Shown here one piece after another: positions 21,194 to 27,732 of a stretch of 56,504 bases of DNA; position 1 is the first letter of the stretch; each line of letters starts with the position of its first letter. The stretch covers positions 1-56,504 of the forward strand of contig JACRDG010000108.1 of assembly GCA_016218715.1 (NCBI GenBank), in the 5' to 3' direction. The translations under genes were made by a program, and so were the position numbers. A model generated the notes under the pieces. That model saw only the letters and a list, made by a program, of their open reading frames with translations, was not told the origin of the DNA and made no database searches. Source of the DNA: Desulfomonile tiedjei. GTDB lineage: Bacteria; Desulfobacterota; Desulfomonilia; Desulfomonilales; Desulfomonilaceae.

Positions 21194-22405
21194 TCATGGG
21201 GCTTCCGTTTGCGCAGGGCCCACGGCACTCTGCCCTATCGGATATCGGATCAGCAAACTGATGAGTAGCCCGGCCAACGGGAGCAACATTATGGACTTCA
21301 ACGCAATGGGTACGCCGAAGTGATCTGCGACTATCCCGAGCACCGTTACACCGAACCCGCCGGTCCCTATGGCAAACCCCACCATGAGCCCCGACGCAAT
21401 CCCGAGGTTCCCTGGCAACAGCTCCTGGGCCATGACGATAGTGACGGTAAAGCTGGAAATCAGGGTCATTCCGACTGCGGCCAGAACGCCAAACAACGCG
21501 AATCCCTGCACCACGAAGATCAGGGGTAATAACGCAGTGGTCAAGGCCAGGGAAAGGATCAGATACCGCTTGTACCCCCATCGATCGGCCAACGGGGCTC
21601 CTGCCAACGTTCCCACTGCACCCCCAACGAGGAAACACGAGACCAACGTCCCTGCGTAGAGCGGATCTCCCTCCTGATAGTCGATGAAGTAGAACGGAAT
21701 GTAGGTCATGAGCCCAAAATGGGTCCAGGATCTCATGACGACCGTCGCGACGATCAATCCCACGGATAGATACGCTGCCCTGGGAGTGCCGTTGCTCGCG
21801 ATCCCTTTCGAGGCGGATAGCGGCCGGGCATGAGACAGGGAAGTCCAATTCCAGACCAGCAACGCGACGAATACCAGGGAAAAGACCAGCATAAGCGGCA
21901 GATAATCGAGGCCAAGATGAGTGACGATGAGAATCGCAACGAGCGGGCCGAGCGCAAAGCCCATATTCCCGCCGACGGTGAATACGGACAATCCGGTCGC
22001 CATCTTGTCTCCAGTAAAAAAACGGGCTGTCTTGAATCCTTCCGGATGGTAGGATGCGACGCCCAGTCCGCTCACCATAACCAGCAGGAGGACAAATTCG
22101 TAGTGATCCGGCATGGAAAGGAGGGACAGGCCAAGGCCCGCGCTCAAACACCCGAGGGGCAGCAAGAAAGCCTTCTTTCTCCTGTCCGACAGATAACCGA
22201 AGAGAGGCTGAATCACCGAAGAGGTCAGATTGGACGCCAGCATGATTGCCCCGGTCATTGCATAGGAAAGGAGCAATTTGGCTTTCAGAAAGGGCAGTAT
22301 GGCCGGCAACGCACCCTGGCAGATGTCCGTTGCGAGGTGCCCAAACGACAAAACGAGCAGGACCTTGAGGTTGAACTTGTTTGCCTGTTGGGGGTCACTG
22401 CTCAT
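21194..22405 (-). CDS. MFS transporter, fosmidomycin-resistance (Fsr)-like
   Basis: The 403-residue protein has about 12 membrane segments. Its opening LLVLSFGHLATDICQGALPAILPFLK is typical of the Fsr/fosmidomycin-resistance branch of the major facilitator superfamily, and the loop LFGYLSDRRKK is the MFS motif A. I set the start at ATG 22405 because GGAGAGGG lies six bases upstream; the frame also opens at 22420. It overlaps the end of the upstream cyclase gene by 11 nt, so the two form a tight operon. The substrate is unknown. Confidence 0.85.
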   Translation of the reverse strand: MSSDPQQANKFNLKVLLVLSFGHLATDICQGALPAILPFLKAKLLLSYAMTGAIMLASNLTSSVIQPLFGYLSDRRKKAFLLPLGCLSAGLGLSLLSMPDHYEFVLLLVMVSGLGVASYHPEGFKTARFFTGDKMATGLSVFTVGGNMGFALGPLVAILIVTHLGLDYLPLMLVFSLVFVALLVWNWTSLSHARPLSASKGIASNGTPRAAYLSVGLIVATVVMRSWTHFGLMTYIPFYFIDYQEGDPLYAGTLVSCFLVGGAVGTLAGAPLADRWGYKRYLILSLALTTALLPLIFVVQGFALFGVLAAVGMTLISSFTVTIVMAQELLPGNLGIASGLMVGFAIGTGGFGVTVLGIVADHFGVPIALKSIMLLPLAGLLISLLIRYPIGQSAVGPAQTEAP

Positions 22406-23831
22406 GCGAGCCCTCTCCATTATCCCGGATCGGACTGAAAACCTCGACAGGCTCTCGCACGTTCTTGAAATTCATCCGCCCGCGACGAAAGAGCCGTACA
22501 TCTTCATTCACCCTGAGCGCTGTGTCAGGGCCGACGAGAATGTCGCCATGTCTGGCCGCGGAAGCTATGCGTGCCGCGAGATTGGTGACGGGACCGGTCG
22601 CGGTAAAGGTCATTCTGGTCCCGGCCGTCCCGGTGAATCTGTTCATGCCCACGGCAGCGATCCCGGAGTTGATGCCCATGTTTACCTCGACCGGCAAGAA
22701 CCGATTCTTCAGTTCTTCGTTGATCTCCAGCGTCTTGTCCCGGATCTCGATCGCTGCCTTGACCGCGCTCAGCGCGGTATCTCTCGGCTCGCCTTGGAAG
22801 ATCACCATGAGACCGTCCCCAGCCGTTTCATTCACGTCTCCGCCGTGGGCGTAGATGACGTCAAGGAAACTCGAGAAGTATTTCTCGATGATGAAGGTCA
22901 CCTTATCTCTGCTTTGGGTCTCGCTGATGCGCGTATAACCCGCGACGTCCAAGAAGAGGACGGTCACGTCTGTGTCCCGTTTTTCGAGATCAGGGGCTGA
23001 AGGATCCTTTTCCACGATCCGCTGAACGGTTGAAGGAACAAACGGCCGAAGATGCCCCAGGATTCGATCGACCGTGAGCTTCTCCTGAGACATTTTCCAG
23101 TGGCTGCGGGCGTTCTTGATGACGTTGCTCGCGAGCTCGACGAGGTCTTTCAGCAGCAGAAAGTCTCTCTCGTTGAGAGCGGTGCCGGGCTTCGCTATGG
23201 CATCCAAGACCGATAGCGTTCTGTCCCCCTCCTGAATGGGGAATACGATCTCGGAAAAACCTTCCGAAGGAAAGCCGTCCGTAACCAAATGACCACCTTG
23301 CCCATCCGGGAGGAAACACACCGCGGAGGAGCCTTGAGCGAGGGCGCTGTTTACGGTTCTCCTGCCTCTCTTGCAAAGCTGACAGTTGACCCTTTGCTTT
23401 TCCATCGCACAGTGAAGGGGACGCGTGTAGTACTGCGCGTCCGGGTCAGTTACGAGGAGACAAACCTCCTGCAATTGAGGGAGCGTTATTCTCGCTTCGT
23501 CACGGATCATCTCCAATATTTCGCCGATGTTCAGCGACGATGTGAGCTTCTGAGCGACTCGAAACACGTTATCGAAGCGTGTCTTGTACAGGTTTGTTTC
23601 AACCTCGGCGAGGCCTTGCGGCTGATCGTTCCGAAGGAGCTTGCCGTCGGCCGAGTCCGCTTCCAACCCCGAGTCTTCTGATGCGAACCATGATATTCCG
23701 CACCCGCAAATGGGGCAGCCCCAGGAATCCGGTAGATTCTCGAAGCGTGTTCCCGGATCGATGTTACGCTCCGGATCGCCCATAACGGGATAGTAAAGCC
23801 AGCCGCACGTGTTGCATTTCCATTTCGTCAC
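22395..23831 (-). CDS. Rubredoxin-GAF-class III nucleotidyl cyclase
   Basis: The 478-residue product starts at GTG 23831 with AAGGAG seven bases upstream. Residues 1-50 form a rubredoxin domain with C6-x2-C9 and C39-x2-C42, the numbering of classical rubredoxins, plus an extra C44. Residues about 85-245 are GAF-like and carry C141, C150, C153 and C172, possibly a second metal or Fe-S site. Residues about 288-465 are a class III adenylate/guanylate cyclase domain with both metal aspartates (D295, D339), the transition-state Asn/Arg pair (N417, R421), and E335 where adenylyl cyclases usually have lysine. No membrane segment is seen. The layout implies a cytosolic redox- or iron-controlled cAMP/cGMP producer. 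It is co-transcribed with the MFS gene. Confidence 0.88.
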   Translation of the reverse strand: MTKWKCNTCGWLYYPVMGDPERNIDPGTRFENLPDSWGCPICGCGISWFASEDSGLEADSADGKLLRNDQPQGLAEVETNLYKTRFDNVFRVAQKLTSSLNIGEILEMIRDEARITLPQLQEVCLLVTDPDAQYYTRPLHCAMEKQRVNCQLCKRGRRTVNSALAQGSSAVCFLPDGQGGHLVTDGFPSEGFSEIVFPIQEGDRTLSVLDAIAKPGTALNERDFLLLKDLVELASNVIKNARSHWKMSQEKLTVDRILGHLRPFVPSTVQRIVEKDPSAPDLEKRDTDVTVLFLDVAGYTRISETQSRDKVTFIIEKYFSSFLDVIYAHGGDVNETAGDGLMVIFQGEPRDTALSAVKAAIEIRDKTLEINEELKNRFLPVEVNMGINSGIAAVGMNRFTGTAGTRMTFTATGPVTNLAARIASAARHGDILVGPDTALRVNEDVRLFRRGRMNFKNVREPVEVFSPIRDNGEGSHEQ

Positions 23832-24448
23832 AACCGGTCTCCTTGCAGCTCTGATCGACGGGCACCCCTGAGCGCATCCCAGTATCTCCAGTCACGGGTC
23901 AAAGCGAATCCGGCCGCGTGCTCGGCATGTCGGGTGTCCCAAATGGCCTTCCTACGCGATCTGGATAGAGGTCGGGAGTTCTCCCTCTCTCCGCTAAGGA
24001 GATTGCCCGTAAGCCAATTGTAATCCGCTCACGTCTCTCGATCAAGCCCACTGCTTACCCGCCGGGAGAGCCGAGGCGCTACGGCGAACCAGGAAGTCGC
24101 CTTGCTCGCTGGACCGAACTTCACTTCGGCCATGCCAGATATAGTAGTTGCCAAAATCCGTGACCGGTTCGCCATCCTGACCTGGAGGCTCCTGGACGAA
24201 GGTCTAACAACTCTGCGTTGTCCGAAGTGAGGGGAGCCCTTTAGGTGAGCAGCCATCCGACCGGACATTATTCTCGGCAACGGCTATATATTGACGGGCA
24301 CGGTCAAGACCTGGCGTATTCCGCCGGAAATATCTTGACCGAGCTGCTCAAGAAAGACTCACCGCCGAGGAACTAACCGAATGTTCGGGTGACGGACGCG
24401 AGTAGAGGGAATTGACGTTCAAACCCGGATGAGCGGAGAGCAAGACGG
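23832..24448. other. 617-nt intergenic region, nothing recognised
   Basis: This divergent interval separates the cyclase operon from a small secreted-protein gene. A minus-strand frame at 24029-24280 and a short plus-strand frame near 24133 both lack good start signals and familiar composition. No hairpin repeat or RNA gene stands out. Promoters for both directions are expected here but no convincing pair of hexamers was found. Confidence 0.4.
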
Positions 24449-25714: not shown

Positions 25715-25764
25715 AGGTTGCGATCCGAAGCATGGTGCCCCATACTGACGGAGGAGGGACCGCC

Positions 25765-27732
25765 ATGAGCCCAGGTGCCAAGACCCCTTTATTCGAAAAT
25801 GGGACGATCCTCAACGGCAAGTGGGAGATTCTTGAGCACATAGCCACCGGAGGGAAGGGAGAGGTGTACCGGGCTCGACAGGCCACTCTGGACCGCGACG
25901 TTGTGGTGAAGACCGTTTCCCTGGAGTACCTCGCCGAATTCGAAGACGATCCGGAAGAAGTAGAGACTGAGATCAAACGATTCCATCGTGAAGCCCTGGC
26001 CATGGCCCAGGTGCGTCACCCGTACGTGGTTCGGGTCTACGACGAGGATTCGACTCAGATTGCAAAAGACGGTGTCGCGCGGACTGTCCATTATGTAGTG
26101 ATGGAGTACGTCCCGGGCCCCACGCTTCGGTCCACTATGCCGGAATGCGGTTTCGGGACCGATGAGCGCGCGGCACGAGCGTGGATCCACGACTGCTTTC
26201 TCCCCGTCCTCGATGGGATCGAGCCTATTCACGAAATGGGAATCATCCACCGGGATATTAAACCCGAGAACGTGATCATGGACGGTACCACCCCCAAGAT
26301 CACCGACTTCGGGATAGCCGGTGGACGGGTCTGGCCTGAACTGACCAGGAGCCATCACGTCGAGGGGACCATTCTGTACATGGCGCCGGAGCAATTCACC
26401 GACCTGGCTGAGTCGGATGCTCGCGTGGACGTCTACGCGTTGGGAAAAATCTTGTACGAAGTCATGTGCGGCAGGATGGTAGACAGCAAGACCGCGTGTC
26501 CCTTACGGAGTGTGTGTTTGGCTGAGGCGTTGACACCGTTCTCGAAAGGGCTGGATGCGATCGTCCGCCAGGCGACAGCGGAAGACAAGGACCAGCGCAC
26601 GCCTTCAGTCAAGGCGCTGCGCGAGGCGTTGCTGAGACTCCTCGAAGCGGCCGAGGCAGCGGAACGCCCATTGCTCAAAGGGCTTCATCGTAAACAGAAG
26701 AGGTTCATAATAGCAGCGATCGCTCTGCTGGCCTTGGTTATCATTGCCTCCAACATCGTGCACCACTATTACATGCTCCATGAAATGCCGGCATCGCCTC
26801 CCGTAGCGGCTCCCGCGGAGTTGCAGAATCCTGGCGAGGGACATACTACGATACCCGGACACTTGCCCGAACAAGGAGCGCCGACGGCAAAGATTATCGG
26901 TAAAGACAATGTGCTCATGCACCTTGTGCCCTCGGGAGAAGTGAAACTTCCGGAGTACTTTGGAGCTCAAGCCGGCAAGCCCTTTGAAGTTCTTTCCTTC
27001 TACCTCGATGAAACCAAAGTGACCAACTACAAGTTTGTAGAATTCCTTAATAAGGCGCTTTCCAAGGTCATCGTGAAAGAGGGAGTGGTTCTGGGGGAGG
27101 GCCGCCCCTGGCTCTTCTTGGGTCCCGTGTACGGCGGGTACGACCCGATTGTGTATCGGGACGGCCGATTCGCTCTCAAGGACGTTGCCTTTGCATCGTA
27201 CCCCGTGGTCAGGGTCACGGGGTACGGTGCCCTCGCCTACGCAGAGTTCTACGGTGAGCGCCTTCCCACGGAACTCGAATGGCTTCACGCGGCGTCAAAA
27301 CCGGACGGTGGCGGCAGAAGTTCTTCAGAGCACGGCGCTCCGTCCCCCCGACAACGGAGTGCCCTGGAACAGGAGATGGAGGGATGGATTTCCGGTTACG
27401 GCAGTGGGAACGAGATTTCCGGAGGCTCCACCGTCGCCCCAGGCCCCTCGCTGATTCCCCATCCGGTGACGACCTTCGAGCCCAACCAGTACGGGATAAG
27501 AGGGCTTTGGGCGAATGTGAGCGAATGGGGCTTGAGAAAGGGCCTGTCTGAGGCCTCCTCGGCTCCGGAATATGTGGTACTCGGCGGCTTGCGAGGGAGT
27601 ATGTTATTGGGGGAGACCCTCATCACAGGAGTTGCGCAGGAGCCATCGGGGGCATTCCGCGATGTGGGCTTCCGGTGTGCCCTTGATCCCGGGCAGGATG
27701 GGTCTCATTTCAAGTCGCCATCCAAAGAGTAA
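25765..27732 (+). CDS. Membrane Ser/Thr protein kinase fused to a SUMF1/FGE-type domain
   Basis: The 655-residue protein has a Hanks-type kinase domain (about 15-300) with all key parts: Gly-rich loop near 28-34, K49, catalytic HRDIKPEN (H162-N169) and DFG (181-183). One membrane segment follows (about 313-332). The outer domain (about 383-642) has features of the formylglycine-generating-enzyme/SUMF1 fold: FYLDETKVTNYKF, FYGERLPTELEW, LWANVSEW, GFRCA. Kinase-TM-SUMF1 proteins place a ligand-binding lectin-like domain outside and a kinase inside. GGAGGAGGG before ATG 25765 supports this start over the in-frame ATG at 25732. A 16-bp hairpin spans its stop. Confidence 0.85.
   Translation: MSPGAKTPLFENGTILNGKWEILEHIATGGKGEVYRARQATLDRDVVVKTVSLEYLAEFEDDPEEVETEIKRFHREALAMAQVRHPYVVRVYDEDSTQIAKDGVARTVHYVVMEYVPGPTLRSTMPECGFGTDERAARAWIHDCFLPVLDGIEPIHEMGIIHRDIKPENVIMDGTTPKITDFGIAGGRVWPELTRSHHVEGTILYMAPEQFTDLAESDARVDVYALGKILYEVMCGRMVDSKTACPLRSVCLAEALTPFSKGLDAIVRQATAEDKDQRTPSVKALREALLRLLEAAEAAERPLLKGLHRKQKRFIIAAIALLALVIIASNIVHHYYMLHEMPASPPVAAPAELQNPGEGHTTIPGHLPEQGAPTAKIIGKDNVLMHLVPSGEVKLPEYFGAQAGKPFEVLSFYLDETKVTNYKFVEFLNKALSKVIVKEGVVLGEGRPWLFLGPVYGGYDPIVYRDGRFALKDVAFASYPVVRVTGYGALAYAEFYGERLPTELEWLHAASKPDGGGRSSSEHGAPSPRQRSALEQEMEGWISGYGSGNEISGGSTVAPGPSLIPHPVTTFEPNQYGIRGLWANVSEWGLRKGLSEASSAPEYVVLGGLRGSMLLGETLITGVAQEPSGAFRDVGFRCALDPGQDGSHFKSPSKE

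Follow-up and report, generated by a model that had tools for sequence, protein, structure and literature searches.

The window, a 56,504-nt stretch of Desulfomonile tiedjei DNA, encodes a protein in which a rubredoxin, a GAF domain and a class III nucleotide cyclase are joined on one chain; this rubredoxin-GAF-cyclase fusion is confirmed here as a real, conserved and apparently undescribed architecture. Judged from its sequence, the fusion would most likely be a redox- or iron-gated guanylate cyclase with the rubredoxin as electron port, a reading to which, though we prefer it to its rivals, we give slightly less than an even chance. The gene is a continuous single frame of 478 codons starting with GTG, and the earlier note, which had described a rubredoxin fused to a GAF-cyclase, had placed it exactly (22395-23831). 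Cysteines are found at positions 6, 9, 39, 42, 44, 124, 141, 150, 153 and 172 of the protein. The features of the locus are the following:

23839..23844, minus strand: AAGGAG, Shine-Dalgarno-like, 7 nt 5' of the GTG (read from the sequence)
22395..23831, minus strand: whole gene, rubredoxin - linker - four-Cys GAF - signalling helix - class III nucleotide cyclase, 478 aa
23697..23825, minus strand: rubredoxin domain, residues 3-45, with ligands C6, C9, C39 and C42 (CxxCG ... CPxCG); PF00301, E 1.9e-16
23592..23681, minus strand: linker, residues 51-80; low pLDDT, 14-40% identity among the fusions
23097..23591, minus strand: GAF domain, residues about 81-245; GAF_2 profile and fold match
23373..23462, minus strand: candidate metal/Fe-S quartet C124-x16-C141-x8-C150-x2-C153 in the GAF domain; family conservation
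23040..23171, minus strand: long helix, residues 221-264, running from the GAF domain towards the cyclase; AF2 model
22437..22979, minus strand: class III cyclase homology domain, residues 285-465; Pfam Guanylate_cyc at 285-461
21194..22420, minus strand: MFS transporter gene (longest ORF), overlapping the end of the cyclase gene by 26 nt

Among 99 genomes searched, which included 18 from the family of the window's organism (its own genome, G000, being one), the full rubredoxin-GAF frame was retrieved in four genera of this one family: in G000 itself and in G003, G012 and G008, where identity to the window protein over residues 1-285 is 72%, 70% and 68%, respectively. The missed frameshift that the earlier note had allowed for was not encountered, the frame being continuous in the window as well as in the three other genomes. 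Since the fusion recurs in three other genomes of the family, it is not a product of frameshift or misassembly; that explanation, for which no supporting point was found, is refuted by the unbroken frame seen in each of four separate assemblies, whose residues 1-285 are 68-72% identical, and its probability is close to nil.

Among the 17 other family genomes, 14 contain a GAF-cyclase at E<=1e-30 and three contain the fusion, and in a phylum sample of 395 genomes (own genome and family included) a match at E<=1e-30 was obtained in 21, with the fusion in two of these (G000 and G003). A wide scan of the genomes of 84,980 species with two motifs, one from the GAF domain and one preceding the cyclase, yielded 54 loci, all from Desulfobacterota/Deltaproteobacteria by their database records, of which two (L055 and L056) carry the fusion; because these were the motifs used, the scan would miss a rubredoxin-cyclase elsewhere whose middle domain is of another kind. 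Genome-by-genome homology searching covered the Desulfobacterota, and the search for viral relatives found none. Two loci with apparent rubredoxin coverage, L080 and L097 (query from residue 6 and 18, respectively), were rejected as fusions, being cyclase frames without rubredoxin.

We aligned the window protein with 46 of the 54 scan loci (n=47), leaving out L066, L093 and L108 (frame or truncation) and L062, L063, L089, L105 and L106 (near-copies or close kin). Guanylate_cyc and GAF_2 are matched by all 47 members and Rubredoxin by three. A tree of 59 rows unites the four fusions in a single clade (100/99), to which the non-fused L057 and L058 are sister (100/99); L066 falls outside it. The fusion clade is nested within a wider Desulfobacterota family of GAF-cyclases without rubredoxin, which favours a single gain of the rubredoxin inside this family over widespread loss. 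The non-fused relatives, among them a paralogue in the same genome (G000:C87), have the GAF quartet and the catalytic set in common with the window protein, 33-67% of the way along a shared architecture, but lack the rubredoxin domain.

The Pfam rubredoxin profile (PF00301) matches the N-terminal module at 60.2 bits against a cut-off of 23 (E 1.9e-16), a sequence match far beyond chance, and residues 1-50 on their own match solved rubredoxins (E 2.3e-16). The NCBIfam equivalog RubredRD scores 63.4 bits, under its whole-protein cut-off of 90, and the module is therefore to be regarded as a rubredoxin domain rather than a stand-alone RubredRD equivalog. Both CxxC(G) knuckles are present, so that the rubredoxin numbering earlier read for cysteines 6, 9, 39 and 42 holds; these ligands are kept in all four fusions, and C44, which adjoins the site, is kept as Cys in two aligned fusions and replaced by Ser in the third.

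Pairwise dN/dS among the four fusions, computed domain by domain, is 0.115-0.339 for the rubredoxin (6/6 pairs), 0.244-0.543 for the linker (5/6 pairs, the remaining one being saturated), 0.079-0.100 for the GAF domain (5/6 pairs) and 0.042-0.062 for the cyclase (5/6 pairs), figures that are rough because dS is high and near saturation. As judged from these values, the rubredoxin is under purifying selection while the neighbouring linker has been scrambled. Its dN/dS is also the highest of the three domains, the rubredoxin evolving faster than GAF and cyclase. This, together with the patchy occurrence of the fusion (3/17 other family genomes versus 14/17 for the GAF-cyclase), would suit a rubredoxin that is a neutral passenger, a lineage-specific fusion with no regulatory role, the GAF cysteine site doing all the sensing. 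The retention of the four ligands and the rubredoxin core in every fusion, next to a scrambled linker, argues against such a passenger, which we hold to be quite improbable.

In the window protein alone, GAF_2 matches residues 100-238 at E 0.0033, under the curated cut-off of the profile; across the family it matches 47 of 47 aligned members at E<=0.01, and comparison of the AF2 model of the domain with known GAF structures gives Z up to 14.9. Conservation of its cysteines is nearly complete, with C141, C150 and C153 each present in 47/47 members and C124 in 46/47, and the quartet is also found in the 44 members without rubredoxin. The earlier note had singled out cysteines 141, 150, 153 and 172; all four are present, but the conserved quartet is 124/141/150/153. 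Cys172 occurs in 15 of the 47 members, including the window protein and its clade, and was on this count rejected as part of a family-wide site, though it may have a clade-specific role. From this pattern, C124, C141, C150 and C153 constitute a candidate metal or Fe-S site, located in a loop with a pLDDT of about 57-68 in the full-chain AF2 model (a GAF-only model was no better). Among PDB sequences, the GAF profile best matches free methionine-R-sulfoxide reductase (fRMsr; E 5.2e-4). An fRMsr-like enzyme was nevertheless rejected: the alignment with 3mmh shows three fRMsr cysteines, of which a single one coincides with a conserved cysteine (C150).

VnfA is a GAF Fe-S sensor. Sensors of the CSK/VnfA type have a kinase or transcription factor as output, follow another cysteine pattern and carry no rubredoxin, and their metal contrasts with that of the window protein, which is a prediction. 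For CSK itself (Chloroplast Sensor Kinase, or Hik2), excerpts of the published account describe redox sensing through a conserved cysteine and a [3Fe-4S] cluster in the GAF domain (PMC6949291).

The C-terminal domain is matched by Pfam Guanylate_cyc (PF00211) at residues 285-461 with 55.2 bits against a cut-off of 21.9 (E 8.6e-15). Compared with solved cyclases, it matches the guanylyl cyclase Cya2 of Synechocystis (2w01) at 6.7e-19 and CyaB (3r5g) at 9.2e-21, both of which have input domains different from those of the window protein. The complete class III catalytic set announced for it is borne out, D295, D339, E335, T408, N417 and R421 all being found; N417 is present in 46/47 aligned members and the others in 47/47. 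We assign D295/D339 to the metal, E335/T408 to the base and N417/R421 to the transition state. Such roles are in part given in excerpts of PMC4215837, and these, with excerpts of PMC7384201, name Glu rather than Lys at the first base-specifying position as the main determinant of GTP use and place Thr at the second position in some guanylate and some adenylate cyclases. In the window protein the first residue, E335, is thus of the guanylate cyclase type, and the second, Thr408, is one found in both classes. On account of Glu335/Thr408, GTP would be preferred over ATP, and we read the enzyme as a probable guanylate cyclase, making cGMP, in preference to an adenylate cyclase. Cya2 likewise has Glu at the purine-specifying position; its base-specifying pair is E-G in the excerpted text (PMC4215837), whereas the second residue here is Thr instead of Gly.

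The organism's own genome encodes 21 cNMP-binding domains above the Pfam cut-off (22 matches), and a downstream cyclic-nucleotide reader is therefore plausible. A CRP-type regulator gene stands directly before the cyclase gene in L074, L076, L078, L079 and L084. These five regulators read QFPASA-like at what we take to be the position of the phosphate-binding Arg in a CRP-type cNMP pocket, and with this Arg absent they were set aside as proof of a cyclic-nucleotide product. At the G000:C87 locus, a 493-aa gene with cNMP-binding and Ser/Thr kinase domains (L038:2130-3611), PKA/PKG-like in architecture, sits 35 nt before the organism's own non-fused GAF-cyclase; a 39% relative of it is located near the L106 cyclase together with a PP2C gene, and a kinase remnant persists in L071/L040.

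The surroundings of the fusions differ from genome to genome: a conserved operon was not found, and no neighbour gene is common to all four. The window copy (G000) has the MFS transporter gene, which was not found beside the fusions of G003, G008 and G012. A PAS hybrid kinase adjoins the fusions of both G003, which has ZnuA as well, and G008; G012 has an integrase (tyrosine-type by eye, L036:929-2146, 760 nt before the fused cyclase). In G003 (L035) the ZnuA gene is divergent from the fusion and accompanied by an ABC ATPase and a permease, the latter two identified by eye. Upstream of the window's rubredoxin-cyclase, and divergent from it, a gene at 25732-27732 on the plus strand encodes a Ser/Thr kinase fused to an FGE-sulfatase domain. 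No oxidant gene was found in the neighbourhoods of the window copy, G008 or G012.

At the two non-fused sister loci, the gene order is Fur-family gene, cyclase and catalase-peroxidase (katG) in L058, and cyclase, 58 nt, Fur-family gene and then ZnuA on the opposite strand in L057. The L058 Fur-family protein has PerR as its best NCBIfam model (130.9 bits, under the cut-off of 180), and the KatG encoded there (L058:5317-7944) has a cytochrome c domain fused to its N-terminus. When the Fur proteins of L057 and L058 were compared by tblastn with 74 loci (some of them duplicates), L080 alone gave a further match, to an edge fragment (E 3.6e-7), and the window yielded no Fur homologue. The rubredoxin profile matched, beyond the fusions, only L066 and L080 among the same 74 loci. 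In L066 a separate rubredoxin ORF (Pfam E 3e-16), situated at the contig end, stops 37 nt before the cyclase ATG; L080 has two rubredoxins, one with C-x-C, near a rubrerythrin gene about 5 kb from its cyclase. In the rubredoxins at L066:1-198 and L080:299-532, C-x-C replaces the first C-x2-C, an odd spacing common to the two genomes. A molybdopterin oxidoreductase gene directly precedes the cyclase (overlapping or within 60 nt) in L080, L082, L085, L086, L089, L101, L103 and L107. Few links connect the relatives' context to oxidant and metal defence, and since they were noticed post hoc we treat them as hints.

These hints can also be read in terms of metal availability, with the eight cysteines reporting iron or zinc loading (filled versus empty) and the signal being metal status instead of redox potential. 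ZnuA, divergent from the G003 fusion and near the sister L057, and the Fur-family genes at both sister loci are in line with such a sensor, but katG beside L058 and the rubredoxin beside L066 fit oxidant defence better, and no metal gene lies immediately around the window's own fusion; on balance, we regard such a metal sensor as unlikely.

Literature searches in PMC found no paper on a rubredoxin-cyclase, and in this respect the earlier statement that no characterised example is known stands; a rubredoxin-regulated signalling enzyme, however, is known. PknG of Mycobacterium tuberculosis has a rubredoxin domain within a cytosolic signalling enzyme, and redox regulation is reported in the excerpts available (PMC8546545, PMC4401782, PMC5667593). 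PknG and the window protein are, to that extent, both signalling enzymes with a rubredoxin domain, but the output of PknG is a Ser/Thr kinase, its rubredoxin touches the catalytic core and it has no GAF domain, in contrast to the cyclase and GAF domain found here. PknG and CSK, as described in the excerpts, show that both halves of the rubredoxin/GAF redox idea have natural examples.

PknG is at the same time the source of the chief rival to redox or iron gating: the rubredoxin could be a regulatory cap or docking module that holds the cyclase back sterically and lets go when an oxidant unfolds it, no electrons passing to the GAF site. According to the excerpts, the PknG rubredoxin domain makes the active site less accessible and thereby reduces catalysis (PMC8546545); redox regulation is also ascribed to it (PMC5667593, abstract A20). 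The completeness of the GAF quartet in members without rubredoxin is in keeping with such a role, since the rubredoxin and GAF sites then need not be wired together. In PknG, however, the rubredoxin lies directly beside the catalytic core, whereas in the window protein it is separated from the cyclase by an entire GAF domain and a linker of 30 residues modelled at low confidence, and a PknG-like restraint appears rather unlikely to us.

Under redox or iron gating, the protein would be a soluble class III guanylate cyclase, probably homodimeric, with its activity set by redox or iron state. Flexibly tethered at the N-terminus, the Fe(Cys)4 rubredoxin would swap electrons with the rubredoxin/oxidant-defence system of the cell and either hand them to the four-Cys centre of the GAF domain or report alongside it. 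This second centre (C124, C141, C150, C153) would be an Fe-S cluster or a single metal, and the change would be relayed along helix 221-264 to the catalytic dimer. We infer that the protein binds iron, that electrons move between the two sites, that activity is gated and in which direction, and that GTP is the substrate. In the full-chain AF2 model the rubredoxin and cyclase domains are predicted at good confidence; the linker has a pLDDT of 38-53 and is presumably flexible, residues 257-265 of the inter-domain helix stretch are at pLDDT <50, and with a pTM of 0.46 no defined rubredoxin-GAF contact is seen.

Gating is supported by the conserved architecture with both ligand sets and all catalytic residues, by the purifying selection acting on the rubredoxin, by relatives placed beside Fur/PerR-like, katG, ZnuA and rubredoxin genes (L058, L057, L035, L066), and by the precedents of the PknG rubredoxin and the CSK GAF [3Fe-4S] cluster. 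Counted against it are the many GAF-cyclases that work without rubredoxin (most of the family), the lack of a neighbour common to the four fusions and of a Fur homologue in the window, the low pLDDT of the cysteine loop, the pTM and the faster evolution of the rubredoxin, as well as the C-x-C and contig-end position of the L066 rubredoxin and the compatibility of Thr408 with adenylate cyclases. The most specific form of this reading, a one-chain relay in which the rubredoxin takes or loses electrons in the oxidant-defence network, passes the change to the GAF four-Cys centre and thereby switches cGMP synthesis, is more doubtful than gating in general.

The rubredoxin-cyclase joins two known kinds of protein, redox-regulated signalling enzymes and GAF-cyclases. 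If the one-chain relay were true, the protein would be the first rubredoxin-gated nucleotide cyclase, and cGMP would be a redox second messenger in Desulfobacterota. Little is known of how strict anaerobes translate the status of oxygen, peroxide or iron into a second messenger. The window protein offers a compact case, with two candidate metal sites and a cyclase on one soluble chain and with non-rubredoxin relatives as natural controls. The cysteine-quartet GAF cyclases are now defined as a family in Desulfobacterota, and the fusion suggests that some oxygen-sensitive bacteria may signal their redox or iron state via a cyclic nucleotide.
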